From positions 1 through 31,851 of the IMG/VR virus record IMGVR_UViG_3300025093_000071: a DNA stretch of 31,851 nucleotides. One strand, 5' to 3'. How positions within the stretch are numbered: the first letter of the stretch is position 1; each line of letters begins with the position of its first letter. Made by a program: the position numbers and the translations under genes. The DNA is from a virus. Under the pieces are notes generated by a model that worked only from the letters and a program-made list of their open reading frames with translations, made no database searches and was not told the origin of the DNA. Of the stretch, positions 5 through 31,851 are shown piece after piece.

Positions 5-130
5 GCCTACTCCTTTTGCTTTCCATAGATTGCTTCCTGCGCTTTCCTCATCTTATCATAGTACTGATTGAGATAGTTTACCTGTTCGTCGTCAATCCAA
101 CGTACTGGATGAGAGTATAAGAGGAGTAGC
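5..130. repeat. Terminal redundancy, left copy
   Basis: These 126 bases are identical to 31726-31851, as expected when a circular or circularly permuted phage genome is written linearly. The unit length is 31,721 bp. The repeat covers the 3' end of the SWIM-protein gene, so that gene is read across the junction. The four bases before it (1-4, tttg) differ from those before the right copy (aaaa). They equal the reverse complement of the hairpin loop found there. Confidence 0.95.
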
Positions 131-471
131 ATAGCCTGTAAATGTTTACAGGTTTTCCACTTGCTGTATTCGTACGCTTTACAAGTGCAGGTAGCATAGT
201 CTGCTGTGACTACCTGAGAGTATGGCGGACTGACCTTGTGGCCGTGTAGGTAGCCCGTGATACTGCGTGGTGTAAACCCACGTGACCAGGAGCGTTCTGC
301 TGTGCCGTCAAGATGAGCGTTGTACAGATGCCATACGGGATTACCCTTGCCTTCTGCGCATCGTGCATTGAAGTACTGCATTTGCTCCATTACAATGCTC
401 TGCATATCAATATGCAATAGTCTTTGTCCACGGTTGATAGCCCCGTGGAGGCTCTGGATTTTATTGTTCAT
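7..471 (-). CDS. SWIM-type zinc-finger protein
   Basis: This 154-residue protein has a clear SWIM zinc-binding signature, CxCx(n)CxH. It is seen as TCTCKAYEYSKWKTCKHLQA at about residues 93-112. SWIM domains bind DNA or proteins and occur in transposases, recombination factors and small phage proteins. Here the domain is almost the only recognisable part, flanked by an unassigned N-terminal 90 residues and a charged C-terminal helix. The start overlaps the end of the upstream ribbon-helix-helix-like gene by 11 bp, so the two are probably co-translated. Its stop codon lies in the first arm of the 10-bp hairpin at the circle junction. In the circular genome the next leftward gene is the replication initiator. 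The exact role is unknown; a DNA-binding accessory role in early replication or recombination is inferred. Confidence 0.8.
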   Translation of the reverse strand: MNNKIQSLHGAINRGQRLLHIDMQSIVMEQMQYFNARCAEGKGNPVWHLYNAHLDGTAERSWSRGFTPRSITGYLHGHKVSPPYSQVVTADYATCTCKAYEYSKWKTCKHLQAMLLLLYSHPVRWIDDEQVNYLNQYYDKMRKAQEAIYGKQKE

Positions 472-3200: not shown

Positions 3201-3235
3201 AATCAGACAATCATATGATAACGGAGTAACAAAGA

Positions 3236-3592
3236 ATGATGAAATTGGTAGATATGTACCGTGCGGAGTTGGAGTATTTGTCCGGTAAATACGGAAGAAC
3301 TCACTTTGTATATGTGTATGATAAGACCGCTAGTATGTTTTCGGCTTTGTCCAAAGGTAAGTGGCCACACGCAGAGACATATATAGAGTTTGACTTGGGA
3401 TTGATTTTGGTGCATTTGTGTGAGATTGAGTTTGATACAGATTCACCGAATATGCAGACATACCGGCACAGTGTGCTTCGGCATCCAGGTGTGGGTAGGA
3501 AGAAGAACGTTGATGTTGTTGTGCATCATAAGTTTGATTTGTATCAGATACTGAATGGCAGAAATGTGTCTTTGTGGTCTGGTGGTAAATGA
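3236..3592 (+). CDS. Hypothetical protein coupled to the methyltransferase gene
   Basis: This protein of 118 residues is the first gene of the rightward arm, with GGAG upstream. It has no recognised domain. It is a soluble alpha/beta-looking protein with several hydrophobic strands (FVYVYDK, GLILVHLCEIEF, NVDVVVHHKFD). The stop overlaps the methyltransferase start (ATGA at 3589-3592), which implies coupled translation and possibly a related job, such as an anti-restriction or DNA-modification partner. That is positional inference only. Confidence 0.75.
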   Translation: MMKLVDMYRAELEYLSGKYGRTHFVYVYDKTASMFSALSKGKWPHAETYIEFDLGLILVHLCEIEFDTDSPNMQTYRHSVLRHPGVGRKKNVDVVVHHKFDLYQILNGRNVSLWSGGK

Positions 3593-4437
3593 TTACCATT
3601 GGTAGCCTGTTTAGTGGTATTGGTGGCTTTGAACTGGGCTTGGAGCGTGCGATACCTAACAGTAAGACGGTATGGCAGGTGGAGCAGAATAAGTATTGTC
3701 GTCGCGTGCTTCGTAGACATTGGCCTGATGCGAAGTTGTATGATGATGTTGTTGGTGTTGGTAAGGATAATTTGGATTCAGTAGATGTGATATGTGGTGG
3801 GTTTCCTTGTCAGGGGTTTAGTAATGCTGGTAAGAAGGAGGGTTTGAATGATGGTCGGTCTGGTCTTTGGTGGGAAATGCACAGAATCATTAGCGAGTTA
3901 CGACCAAGAGTCGCGGTGTTGGAAAACGTGCCAGCACTCCTTATTCGAGGAATCGAAGAAGTTCTTGGGTCGTTGGCCGAAATCGGGTATGATGCAGAAT
4001 GGTGTGTTATACCAGCAGGCGGAGCCGGTGGTTTCGGAGCACCACACCAACGTAAAAGATTGTTCATTGTTGCCTACTCCTCTGAAGTCAGACGTGGACA
4101 AACACGGCACAGGGGGGCTTGTGCGAAGAATAACGTATCCAGAAGGACAGAAGAGATACAGTCAAGGAGATTACCGCAATCTTCCAACGCCAACAAAACA
4201 TTTACACCAAGAGTACGGAAGTCCCTCGGAGTGGAATCGCAAAGACCCTTCACTGATAACACACTTCATAGAACCGGGTTTGGATACTGGGGAACGACCG
4301 AGGCTCCATCCCCCGTTTGTCGAGTGGATGATGGGATACCCAATAGGTTGGACAAGTTGCGAGCACTCGGAAATGCAATTGTCCCTCAGTGTTCAGAGTG
4401 GATTGGCAGACGAATAGTGGAGGCAGGATTGTTATGA
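3589..4437 (+). CDS. DNA (cytosine-5)-methyltransferase
   Basis: This 282-residue enzyme would methylate cytosine at C5 in a specific DNA site using S-adenosylmethionine. All key motifs are visible: SAM-binding GSLFSGIGGFE (5-15), catalytic GGFPCQGFS (70-78, nucleophile Cys74), ENVPAL (112-117), QRKRLFIVA (154-162), and the C-terminal RALGNAIVPQ (about 258-267). The target-recognition part between about 165 and 240 is short and Arg/Ser-rich. No restriction endonuclease is adjacent, so the likely role is protecting phage DNA from host restriction. From codon 87 on, the gene is overlapped by another open frame in +1 (3848-4417). Both ends overlap neighbours by ATGA. Confidence 0.95.
   Translation: MITIGSLFSGIGGFELGLERAIPNSKTVWQVEQNKYCRRVLRRHWPDAKLYDDVVGVGKDNLDSVDVICGGFPCQGFSNAGKKEGLNDGRSGLWWEMHRIISELRPRVAVLENVPALLIRGIEEVLGSLAEIGYDAEWCVIPAGGAGGFGAPHQRKRLFIVAYSSEVRRGQTRHRGACAKNNVSRRTEEIQSRRLPQSSNANKTFTPRVRKSLGVESQRPFTDNTLHRTGFGYWGTTEAPSPVCRVDDGIPNRLDKLRALGNAIVPQCSEWIGRRIVEAGLL
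3848..4417 (+). CDS. Overlapping +1-frame ORF within the methyltransferase gene
   Basis: This frame has no stop for 189 codons and ends 20 bases before the methyltransferase does. The start has an exact AAGGAGG five bases upstream of ATG ATG, stronger than most gene starts in this genome. The protein shows CWKTCQHSLFEESKKFLGRW, repeated LPTP motifs (SLLPTP, NLPTPT), PSLITH, and PFVEWMMGYPIGWT near the C-terminus. From memory, many phage genomes carry proteins with SWKTSQ, PTPTA and FVEWLMGFP.GWT motifs. The FVEW block overlaps the motif IX-X region of the methyltransferase, so such proteins may be overprinted partners of C5-methyltransferases. The function is unknown. The risk is that the open frame is a by-product of conserved methyltransferase codons; expression is not shown. 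Confidence 0.5.
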   Translation: MMVGLVFGGKCTESLASYDQESRCWKTCQHSLFEESKKFLGRWPKSGMMQNGVLYQQAEPVVSEHHTNVKDCSLLPTPLKSDVDKHGTGGLVRRITYPEGQKRYSQGDYRNLPTPTKHLHQEYGSPSEWNRKDPSLITHFIEPGLDTGERPRLHPPFVEWMMGYPIGWTSCEHSEMQLSLSVQSGLADE

Positions 4438-28545: not shown

Positions 28546-28951
28546 GATTGTTGTACATCATTCCGCATCGAAGCAATCAACTACTCGTGACCAGATTGAT
28601 CGTTGGCATAAAGATCGTGGTTGGTCTGGAGTAGGGTATCATTATGTGATAGAATCAGATGGGTCGATAATGATGGGTCGACCATTTGAGAAGATCGGTG
28701 CTCATACTAAAGGAAATAATGGTGATAGTATTGGTGTTTGTGTTGTTGGTAATTATGAACAAATTGATTCAATGACACCAGGGCAACACCAATCTCTTGT
28801 TGTTCTGTTGCACGGTTTGATGGGGCAGTTTGATCTTGCTATTGATGACGTGTACGGTCATCGAGAGTTGGGTTCGAGTGCCTGTCCAGGAGAACATCTA
28901 TTCAAGTGGCTATCAGATTGGAGAGTGCAGTATGCCAAAGGCGAAGTCTAG
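28529..28951 (+). CDS. Endolysin: N-acetylmuramoyl-L-alanine amidase (T7 lysozyme-like)
   Basis: This 140-residue zinc amidase (Amidase_2/PGRP fold) cuts the bond between muramic acid and L-alanine in peptidoglycan for lysis. The putative zinc ligands are His10 (KIVVHHSAS), His111 (YGHREL) and Cys119 (SSACPG). Tyr37 in GYHYV matches the catalytic tyrosine, and GDSIGVCVVGN is a family hallmark. The residue two before the Cys, a catalytic Lys in T7 lysozyme as I recall, is Ser here. No signal peptide is seen, so a holin is needed. GGAGG lies nine bases before the ATG. Confidence 0.93.
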   Translation: MRQINKIVVHHSASKQSTTRDQIDRWHKDRGWSGVGYHYVIESDGSIMMGRPFEKIGAHTKGNNGDSIGVCVVGNYEQIDSMTPGQHQSLVVLLHGLMGQFDLAIDDVYGHRELGSSACPGEHLFKWLSDWRVQYAKGEV

Positions 28952-29427: not shown

Positions 29428-29946
29428 CTACTCGAGTAGTAGTTTTTCCACCTCCTTTGTGATGACATATTTTTGTCGTGCTCTTTCAATGGTACCATTG
29501 CCATTCTTGATCCACAACTTTGCTTTGTTAAATGTTTCAGTTCCCGGAATAAGTTCGGGTAAAATCTCTTCTGGTAGATCTTCTCCTGCATAGATGTACA
29601 GTCCTAGACCGTGTCTGGCAATGGCCTTGACTGAGCAACGTTGTATTGCTTTGTTAACATCCATCATCGTTACTTGGTCTATTGGTATACATTTGTTTTG
29701 GTGGTTCATCACGGGCAAGTACTCGATGTGCTCTGTGCCGTTTATCTCAATTCCAACCTTGACCATTGCACCGGCCGGACTGGAAAGATATGGAAGGCCT
29801 TCCTGCTCGTATACCCAGCGACGGGATTTAGGGTAGCGTTTCAGCAGTTCACCCCAAGCCCACGCCCAGGAGAGATAGGTAAATCTTCCCTTGCGTTCAG
29901 TGTGTTTGTTTACATTTATTTGTGAGAGAGTGTCGAATATACTCAT
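29428..29946 (-). CDS. Single-strand annealing protein, Sak3/DUF1071 type
   Basis: This 172-residue recombinase would anneal complementary single strands in phage recombination and repair. The N-terminus SIFDTLSQINVNKHTERKGR followed by FTYLSWAWAWGELLKRYP is the hallmark of the Sak3 (DUF1071, Rad52-like) family. Further hallmarks are EYLPVMNHQNKCI, VNKAIQRCSVKAIARHGLGL and YIYAGEDLPEE. The length is slightly short for the family. No partner exonuclease or SSB gene is seen nearby. It is last in the leftward arm, overlapping the preceding gene by ATGA, and is followed by the convergent terminator. Confidence 0.88.
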   Translation of the reverse strand: MSIFDTLSQINVNKHTERKGRFTYLSWAWAWGELLKRYPKSRRWVYEQEGLPYLSSPAGAMVKVGIEINGTEHIEYLPVMNHQNKCIPIDQVTMMDVNKAIQRCSVKAIARHGLGLYIYAGEDLPEEILPELIPGTETFNKAKLWIKNGNGTIERARQKYVITKEVEKLLLE

Positions 29947-30119
29947 TGGTATCTCCGTATGATTGCTTGTTCAATGTTTGTTGGTATGATTTTATAGATC
30001 CCGTCGACGGTCAGGAATACATACCTACCTGACCGGGGAAAGAATATACATACATATCGATTTAGATAGATACGCTCGGACACGAGTACAGCATTGTCTG
30101 GCACAGGAAACTCACTCAT
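29943..30119 (-). CDS. Small hypothetical protein in the replication block
   Basis: The protein has 58 residues from ATG 30119 (61 from ATG 30128). It overlaps the stop of the upstream gene and, by ATGA, the start of the annealing-protein gene. Its tight packing between two real genes supports it. It is a beta-rich small protein (NAVLVSERIYLNRYVCIFFP; RYVFLTVDGIYKI). The family is unknown. Confidence 0.6.
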   Translation of the reverse strand: MSEFPVPDNAVLVSERIYLNRYVCIFFPRSGRYVFLTVDGIYKIIPTNIEQAIIRRYQ

Positions 30120-30840
30120 CCCAACCATCCCGGGATTGATCAGTTTCAGTGTGCATCAATGCGTCACGCTGTGCTTGATTGCCATTCATCAGTAAGTTGA
30201 CAATCCGTTGGAAGCCACGTTGTGGTTCCAACTTCGCCTGCTCGACACGTTCTTCCAGTGCGTACCATTCATCTAGTTTGAGGCGTTCCCTGTGGGTTAG
30301 TGTTGGAAGGTCTGCACACGACCGGTGGAAAGCGTGTAACTCAATCCTTCTCTCCTTGCTCAGGCCTATCCTTCTCTCTTCTGCTAGTCTGGTATTGGTG
30401 CTACCAAGACGAGCAACCGAACCAGCACAACCGCATATGTTCATTCTCTCGTCTACGTAGTACTCACCTTGTTTGTAGCCCCTGGACTTGGTATCTCCTG
30501 ACGGTGCTGTCCACGTAAAGTGAGCCACGGTCTGACACCACCCGTCCAGTGCAATGCAGTCGTCACATAGTTTGTAATCAATGTCGGCTTGATGAGATAC
30601 ACCCAAGCCTAGGTCAACAGTAGCCTTCCTGACTGCACCAACGATGTCGTTCAGTTTGGGTGGATACTCTGACGGTTGAGTGATCAATGATTCCATTGCT
30701 TTCAGTATGGCCTTTGGGTGGCTCTTCCCAAGTGTCGCCTCCCAAGTCGGGTACGCTCTTTCGATCCAGCGTTCCGGTTTGTTGAACGCTACGGCATAGT
30801 CGTTTATAGCCTGATGTAGGGCTTGTTGTAGTCTGTGCAT
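30112..30840 (-). CDS. Putative replication accessory (helicase-loader-like) protein
   Basis: This 242-residue protein starts two bases after the initiator stop, the O-P order of lambdoid phages. The N-terminal 70 residues are helical and end in YPPKLNDIVGAVRKA. This resembles the N-terminal part of phage P-like and DnaT/loader-like proteins, where W..tl....p..i..A...l.......pP.l.. is common (from memory, weak). A Cys-rich middle (CDDCIALDGWC, then CGCAG) could bind zinc. There is no Walker motif, so it is not an ATPase. The role is inferred from position. Confidence 0.45.
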   Translation of the reverse strand: MHRLQQALHQAINDYAVAFNKPERWIERAYPTWEATLGKSHPKAILKAMESLITQPSEYPPKLNDIVGAVRKATVDLGLGVSHQADIDYKLCDDCIALDGWCQTVAHFTWTAPSGDTKSRGYKQGEYYVDERMNICGCAGSVARLGSTNTRLAEERRIGLSKERRIELHAFHRSCADLPTLTHRERLKLDEWYALEERVEQAKLEPQRGFQRIVNLLMNGNQAQRDALMHTETDQSRDGWDE

Positions 30841-30842
30841 TG

Positions 30843-31670
30843 TTAGTCCTCTAGGTCATTATACGAGATACGACCAGTTTTTGTTGTTTGTGTTGTAGTT
30901 GTAGTTGTTGTTGTTGTTTTAGACATATCCTGTTTTGCTTTGGACAGACACTCAGCCCACGCTTTTTTATTGTAAAGACTTGCTGGGCTTATGTGTCCGT
31001 TGTCTCTTCTCCACCGTGCACGAGCACAGGACTGTGACAGGTAGCACCAATCGAGTACCTGGATACAGGCCTCCATATCGCCTGCTCTTACTCTCGATGA
31101 GATACAGGCTAGGTCAGGTGCTGGTATTATCTCAGGAGTACCAGCAAGTTCAATCCAGTGAGACAGTACACGCTGACAGTTCTTGCTTTGTTGCACGTAC
31201 CGTAGGAGATTGTCTTCTACTTCATCGTCAACCCTTATCTTAACAACACCAATATTTATTAATTTATATTGTTTATAGGGTGTCGTTGTCTCCCGTGTAT
31301 CGGGTGTTTCCGATTGGGAGTGATTGAAACGTGATTGATTACTGATTGATTTTGAAAATCGACCCTCGGTATCTCGGGGGCTATCGTCGTTTTGTTGATT
31401 GATTTGTGATTGATTTGTGATTGAACCCTTGGAAACGTAGCACTGATACCACGTTTCCATCGCTGTACAGAACTGACGAACCTTGTACAGTGTCCAGCCC
31501 CAACGTCTACCCAACTCTCGTTGGGAAGGTAGTTGATTCAGGCTACGAAGTTTCATCCATTCGAAGCCTGCTTCGACTTCCGAGTTAGTACCCTTCGATG
31601 TTTCCAGTTGAAAAGGAATGGCAATAAAATGTGTCTTGCCGTTCCGATATGATTGTGTTATTCTCTTCAT
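30843..31670 (-). CDS. Replication initiator, lambda O-like (putative)
   Basis: The protein has 275 residues. The N-terminal winged-helix segment (LPSQRELGRRWGWTLYKVRQ, about 47-66) matches the start of O-type initiators. A polar linker follows, encoded by the DNA that carries the TGATTGA repeats, then a C-terminal helical domain (about 140-245) and a run of ten Thr plus Gln (residues 251-263) before a short acidic end. Placing origin iterons inside the initiator gene is the lambda arrangement. A putative loader partner follows at once. The start has a weak GAG ribosome site. The function is inferred from the HTH, the repeats and the order. Confidence 0.6.
   Translation of the reverse strand: MKRITQSYRNGKTHFIAIPFQLETSKGTNSEVEAGFEWMKLRSLNQLPSQRELGRRWGWTLYKVRQFCTAMETWYQCYVSKGSITNQSQINQQNDDSPRDTEGRFSKSISNQSRFNHSQSETPDTRETTTPYKQYKLINIGVVKIRVDDEVEDNLLRYVQQSKNCQRVLSHWIELAGTPEIIPAPDLACISSRVRAGDMEACIQVLDWCYLSQSCARARWRRDNGHISPASLYNKKAWAECLSKAKQDMSKTTTTTTTTTQTTKTGRISYNDLED
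30880..30920. repeat. Trinucleotide-like (GTT/GTA)n tract
   Basis: A low-complexity run of GTTGTTGTT-type sequence on the plus strand encodes the poly-Thr end of the initiator on the minus strand. Such tracts change length easily by slippage. Confidence 0.7.
31251..31424. other. Predicted replication origin (iterons plus AT-rich element)
   Basis: TGATTGA starts at 31321, 31332, 31343 and again at 31396, 31407, 31418: two sets of three, each exactly 11 bp apart (one helical turn). Eleven is not a multiple of three, so the pattern is not set by the protein code. Next to it, 31251-31277 is 26/27 A/T, a candidate unwinding element. All of this lies inside the putative initiator gene, as in lambda ori. 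Confidence 0.65.
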
Positions 31671-31710
31671 ATGTCACTCGTTGTTTTTATTTGTGATATG
31701 ATTGTAGTTG

Positions 31711-31735
31711 AGGAGTAGGCCAAAAGCCTACTCCT
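31711..31735. terminator. 10-bp hairpin at the circle junction (terminator-like)
   Basis: AGGAGTAGGC pairs perfectly with GCCTACTCCT around a CAAAA loop. The stop codon of the SWIM gene, continued around the circle, lies in the arm reached first by leftward transcription. Leftward RNA lacks a clear U tract after it, while rightward RNA has a short UUUU. Its role is therefore uncertain (terminator, RNA-stability hairpin or protein site). Confidence 0.5.
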
Positions 31736-31851
31736 TTTGCTTTCCATAGATTGCTTCCTGCGCTTTCCTCATCTTATCATAGTACTGATTGAGATAGTTT
31801 ACCTGTTCGTCGTCAATCCAACGTACTGGATGAGAGTATAAGAGGAGTAGC
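31726..31851. repeat. Terminal redundancy, right copy
   Basis: Exact copy of 5-130. It contains the 3' end of the SWIM-protein gene again and is preceded by the intact hairpin of the circle junction. Confidence 0.95.

Follow-up and report, generated by a model that had tools for sequence, protein, structure and literature searches.

Six copies of a seven-base repeat, arranged as two triplets with exact 11-bp steps, lie beside an AT-rich tract inside the gene of a putative replication initiator, and together they most probably form the in-gene replication origin of the phage, a reading to which we assign a probability of about 90%. The window, by which we mean the whole stretch of DNA analyzed, is a single virus record of 31,851 nt (IMGVR_UViG_3300025093_000071, positions 1 to 31,851), and it very probably represents a small tailed phage that carries its origin within its own initiator gene. 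We favor this reading because of the rarity of the layout, the conservation of the sites at the DNA level, the fixed distance of the AT-rich tract, the presence of a helicase-loader-like neighbor, and the experimental precedent of TP901-1 and Tuc2009; an earlier note on this DNA had proposed that iterons within the gene, next to an AT-rich unwinding element, form the origin, and the comparative evidence favors that proposal. The result provides a candidate origin for a set of uncultured phages with an initiator that falls outside the curated families.

Two triplets of phased repeats in the initiator gene

On the plus strand of the window, TGATTGA occurs at positions 31321, 31332, 31343, 31396, 31407, and 31418 (steps of 11, 11, 53, 11, and 11 bp), so that every position in the earlier description, with six copies in two triplets stepped by exactly 11 bp, is confirmed. 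Read on the sense strand of the initiator gene, which occupies positions 30843 to 31670 on the minus strand, the sites become TCAATCA and fall into a first cluster toward the 5′ end of the gene (31396 to 31424, minus strand; gene positions 247, 258, and 269) and a second cluster (31321 to 31349, minus strand; gene positions 322, 333, and 344). Exact copies of TGATTGA on both strands number 15 in the window (shuffle mean, 8.9), and 6 of the 15 lie within these 104 bp. When the whole window is scanned at periods 8 to 25, the only 7-mers that recur exactly as triples are these two, both with period 11. Two phased TC[AG]NNCA triples were recreated in none of 5,000 synonymous-codon shuffles of the initiator gene, and at least one such triple appeared in 67.

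Another repeat (D9), GATATGATTGT, is found in two exact copies close to where the initiator gene begins (31646 to 31656 and 31695 to 31705). It contains TGATTGT, one mismatch away from the iteron core, and the two copies are possible autoregulatory sites.

Conservation of the sites and the AT-rich tract among relatives

With the initiator alone as query, neither viral contigs nor phage records yielded a relative, and relatives were reached only via the terminase, a search for which returned 21 loci. The initiator matched 6 of the 20 terminase-locus records against which it was searched, the remaining 14 being mostly fragments that are uninformative on this gene; two of the matching loci (L105 and L106) carry the same gene sequence, leaving five distinct relatives with protein identities of 56, 35, 35, 34, and 38%. 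These five represent only three lineages besides the window and are not fully independent cases. Protein searches with the L108 and L107 initiators and a profile search yielded no further records, the profile finding none in genome_contigs, and gene 2, the next gene downstream, found no relatives when used alone as a query.

In all six distinct genes, the window included, TC[AG]NNCA sites form two triplets with steps of exactly 11 bp. The phasing, whose loss in relatives the earlier note had taken to speak against an origin, is thereby kept in all five distinct relatives. The letters of cluster 1 have drifted in L104, L105, and L107 (TCAAGCA or TCAACCA, followed by TCATGCA twice) with the spacing unchanged. 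T1, C2, C6, and A7 are invariant across all 36 sites, an invariance fixed by the pattern TC[AG]..CA with which the sites were picked, but the pattern does not dictate that a site be present at each 11-bp step. A different arrangement is seen in L108, where the clusters are separated by a step of 43 bp instead of 53, a difference of 10 bp or approximately one helical turn, and where cluster 1 lies in another reading frame (codon positions 1,0,2 versus 0,2,1) while retaining the 11-bp register. Since both frame and spacing have changed with the phase kept, it is the DNA and not the protein that appears to be conserved, and this locus offers a natural test of helical phasing in which spacing has shifted by one turn and the frame of a cluster has changed within a constant 11-bp register. 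Codon usage points the same way: where the window and L103 encode the same residue, 43 of 46 codons agree within gene positions 241 to 432, a region that spans the sites and the AT-rich tract, whereas outside it the figure is 50 of 98 (permutation P = 5e-5). By these comparisons the sites are conserved at the DNA level rather than the protein level.

These observations bear directly on whether the pattern could be a by-product of a Gln/Asn/Ser-rich linker, arising either from selection on the protein or from drift of low-complexity sequence. The linker encoded in the window and in L103 is indeed rich in Q, N, and S, but a period of 11 is not a multiple of 3 and rotates the repeats through the reading frames, the synonymous shuffles never recreated the two triplets, cluster 1 of L108 keeps its phase in a different frame, and synonymous codons are frozen across the sites; we consider a linker by-product next to negligible in probability.

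The AT-rich tract, the proposed unwinding element, lies at positions 31251 to 31277. As the earlier note had described, it is a nearly pure A/T segment close to the sites. It has A or T at 26 of 27 positions, more than any other 27-mer in the window, and 43 bp separate it from the nearest site. An AT-rich 27-mer follows the last site in 6 of 6 genes, at a distance of 43 bp in five and 44 bp in one; it is the top A/T 27-mer of its own gene in five of the six and first or second in L108, a gene with 54% GC that nevertheless places an AT-rich 27-mer at the fixed distance. By nearest-neighbor energy the tract is among the three least stable 30-bp places of the window, but in 80-bp windows it does not rank among the least stable parts (a fraction of 0.021 of the window is less stable). 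Part of its conservation could be at the protein level because the tract encodes a conserved peptide, YKQYKLINIGVV in both the window and L103.

The initiator protein and its genomic surroundings

The initiator is a protein of 275 amino acids with no Pfam match above cutoff and no sequence match in the PDB. An AlphaFold2 model of its N-terminal part contains three confident helices (residues 31 to 43, 50 to 57, and 61 to 79; pLDDT of about 88 to 93 for residues 31 to 70 and 83 for residues 71 to 80), from which we infer a three-helix HTH at about residues 31 to 79 (positions 31434 to 31580, minus strand) as the proposed site-binding domain. Structure matches to the model are weak and mostly to DNA-binding HTH or homeodomain folds (VIA-align Z of at most 5.7), none in the PDB or the viral structure libraries has an E value as low as 0.001, and the matches listed include no lambda O, RepA, or DnaD structure. 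The full-length prediction is poor (pLDDT of 48) and unfit for structure search. O-type families in Pfam and PHROGs match none of the six family members at E values up to 1, and the initiator is thus not recognizable by sequence as a lambda O relative; the two may still be remotely homologous. A DnaD-like helicase loader family (phrog_186) weakly matches one of the six members (E = 0.0057). On the basis of these searches, the initiator family corresponds to no curated family and appears to be new.

Directly 3′ of the initiator, across a 2-bp gap, is gene 2 (positions 30112 to 30840, minus strand), which overlaps the initiator in some relatives and follows it in 5 of 5 related records. The window copy alone matches phrog_2289 with an E value of 0.022, and among the aligned members this family is matched in 4 of 6 (best E value, 2.3e-4) and the P-like helicase loader family phrog_109 in 4 of 6 (best E value, 4.5e-6). 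Judged by its relatives, gene 2 is helicase-loader-like, a probable P-like loader and analogue of lambda P, and as such it is in keeping with recruitment of the host helicase by the phage; the host-loading origin anticipated in the earlier note is strengthened by these phrog_109 matches. That note had also stated that the genome lacks polymerase and helicase genes, and no such match was found among the 20 larger ORF products compared with PHROGs, a result that is consistent with the statement for that set. On the same strand, gene 2 is followed by a small ORF and then by a gene for a Sak single-strand annealing protein (positions 29428 to 29946, minus strand; PF06378, 4.3e-45; phrog_659, 1.9e-56). 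Two related records (L113, 3834 to 4508, and L114, 8060 to 8725) encode in the place of Sak a different protein of ~220 amino acids, mutually similar between them, as though one recombination module had been exchanged for another.

A 31,721-bp circle, as previously proposed, fits the window, in which positions 5 to 130 recur at 31726 to 31851 as a terminal overlap with 126 of 130 bases identical. On this circle a small ORF (7 to 471, minus strand) lies just upstream of the initiator, and it is conserved next to that gene in all five related records; it carries a C-x-C...C-x-H pattern, which we take to resemble a SWIM zinc finger. A C5 cytosine methyltransferase gene (3589 to 4437, plus strand; PF00145, 2e-43) adjoins the packaging genes.

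The minimum of GC skew that the earlier note had expected near the origin was not borne out: on the circle, the detrended cumulative skew is lowest at 3,222 and highest at 28,946. The test says little here because these extremes track the switch between leftward and rightward genes, and the skew, confounded by gene direction, neither supports nor refutes an origin at the iterons. The two extremes could be read as signs of an accessory or secondary origin at the array with the main origin elsewhere, and some phages switch origins, ICP1 being described as using another origin late in infection; the window, however, contains no other exactly phased array at periods 8 to 25, and we regard a secondary role as quite unlikely.

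Partition systems use direct-repeat arrays. The sites might accordingly serve an extrachromosomal prophage as its centromere or partition site (parS/parC-like), and the B83 phage is described as having iterons that precede a parM-like gene. No ParA/ParM-like protein is present among the 20 scanned ORF products, however, and the array here lies inside a gene and is followed by a helicase-loader-like gene, leaving a partition function very improbable. It is also conceivable that the sites are operators through which the protein binds within its own gene and blocks transcription, with replication starting elsewhere. HTH proteins often autoregulate, and the single-mismatch TGATTGT copies near the gene start would suit such a role, but six phased operators located 250 to 350 bp inside a gene would be rare, and autoregulation leaves unexplained both the AT-rich tract at a fixed distance and the helicase-loader-like neighbor. 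We hold this explanation, too, to be unlikely at long odds.

If the array is the origin, its mechanism may be inferred from lambda and Tuc2009. The encoded protein would bind the sites in its own gene through the N-terminal HTH, with one subunit on each 7-bp site, and the subunits would align on one face of the helix in two adjacent patches about seven turns apart. The resulting complex would strain and melt the AT-rich tract, whereupon the gene 2 product could load the replicative helicase of the host on the melted DNA, in the manner of lambda O and P, and host primase and polymerase would complete the fork.

One-turn spacing and comparison with known origins

Arrays with one-turn (10- to 11-bp) spacing, located immediately after an N-terminal DNA-binding domain and in many cases built on a core of the CAANCA type, might represent a common origin code across unrelated phage initiator families and hosts, of which the phage studied here would be a two-patch version with the phase kept and the frame free. 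We advance this idea tentatively and think it less than an even bet. If true, the origins of uncultured phages could be read from the gene by a simple scan.

The exact pattern TCAATCA-N4-TCAATCA-N4-TCAATCA was found at 19 loci in viral contigs. Eleven of these are in ORFs that appear initiator-like from a reading of their translations (L116, L117, L119, L120, L121, L124, L126, L129, L131, L132, and L133), although L126 and L103 are the same contig and a single related group accounts for six or seven of the 11; the other eight are minisatellites, intergenic, or unclear. A Pfam scan of four of the initiator-like ORFs assigned DUF7833 to L119 and, below the cutoff of the model, DUF1376 to L132, with no match for L120 and L121. 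Four TCAATCA units in a row occur at 32 loci in genome_contigs, none in a recognizable initiator, which indicates that such arrays also arise in bacteria as plain tandem repeats.

We also considered 930 ORFs from 80 Sak-linked loci, which were not chosen for repeats. These contain 7 exact 7-mer triples at period 11, compared with a shuffle mean of 0.25 (maximum of 20 shuffles, 1), but the counts at periods 8, 10, 12, 15, and 20 (3, 3, 9, 4, and 3 versus 0.15, 0.05, 1.20, 0.25, and 0.05) are also in excess, so that 11 is not the sole raised period. CAANCA triples occur at period 11 in 3 of the 80 loci and at other periods in at most 1, an excess that is suggestive of a general code but not proof of one. 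Four Sak-linked initiator-like ORFs (L056, L064, L085, and L086) have 10- or 11-bp phased arrays with other cores (GCAACCA, GCGGCGA, and AAACCTG). No period-11 triples were found in 30 phrog_186 loci, by eye mostly host DnaD, that were drawn from 199 genomes within a single phylum.

Twelve replisome-organizer genes were scored for period 11, namely those of Tuc2009 and TP901-1 and 10 hand-chosen among 30 listed of 143 records. The score was reached by at most 6 of 500 synonymous shuffles in six of the genes and by 17, 22, 30, 52, 212, and 473 of 500 in the other six; 11-bp units are accordingly common to Tuc2009 and several relatives but not to all twelve. In three Tuc2009-type rep genes (L205, L211, and L167), a second repeat of 5/10/15 bp (AGGTAAGGTTAGG type) directly follows the 11-bp units.

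Tuc2009 supplies a counterpart in spacing. TP901-1 ORF13 and Tuc2009 Rep2009 (ORF16) are described as binding repeats within their own genes that serve as the origin (PMC8965321), and the Tuc2009 record notes of the gene that it "contains origin of replication." Its rep gene has four 11-bp units at 342, 353, 364, and 375 (second base of each) with the core CAACCA; the 11-bp in-gene unit is hence not peculiar to the phage studied here, and its spacing has an experimentally placed counterpart. Both Tuc2009 and TP901-1 encode replisome organizers with the origin inside their own gene, and Sak and SSB genes adjoin both. Tuc2009 differs in having one cluster instead of two triplets, and TP901-1 rep lacks an 11-bp phase (its score being the one reached by 473 of 500 shuffles); beyond the one weak phrog_186 hit, neither protein has a family-level match to the window family.

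RepA_N-type initiators (pSK41, pTZ2162, and PLE RepA) bind direct-repeat iterons with an N-terminal DNA-binding domain (PMC7145576), an arrangement like that predicted here. They differ in their mostly semipalindromic iterons and dimeric N-terminal domains, and the phage satellite PLE RepA differs in having iterons in a noncoding region; a PDB sequence search gives the window family no match. A literature search largely confined to openly accessible papers returned no account of 11-bp in-gene iterons in this phage group.

In overall design a close parallel is the origin of phage lambda and the Stx phages. The lambda origin sits midway along gene O, where O dimers bind iterons that adjoin an AT-rich tract (PMC7466680). 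Here, too, the origin would lie mid-gene after the N-terminal DNA-binding part, with an AT-rich tract coming after the repeats as the sense strand is read and a helicase-loader gene directly downstream of the initiator: direct repeats inside the initiator gene and the tract beside them are present in 6 of 6 distinct genes, their binding and unwinding being predicted, and the P-like loader gene is directly downstream in 5 of 5 related records. The lambda annotation gives four 18-bp iterons at 20- to 24-bp steps, whereas the sites described here are six asymmetric 7-bp cores at 11-bp steps in two triplets instead of iterons of ~18 to 20 bp bound by O dimers, and homology to lambda O is not detectable by sequence in any of the six members. 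The general design is thus already known, and what appears to be new is the initiator family, the two-triplet layout, and a change of spacing that preserves the helical turn.
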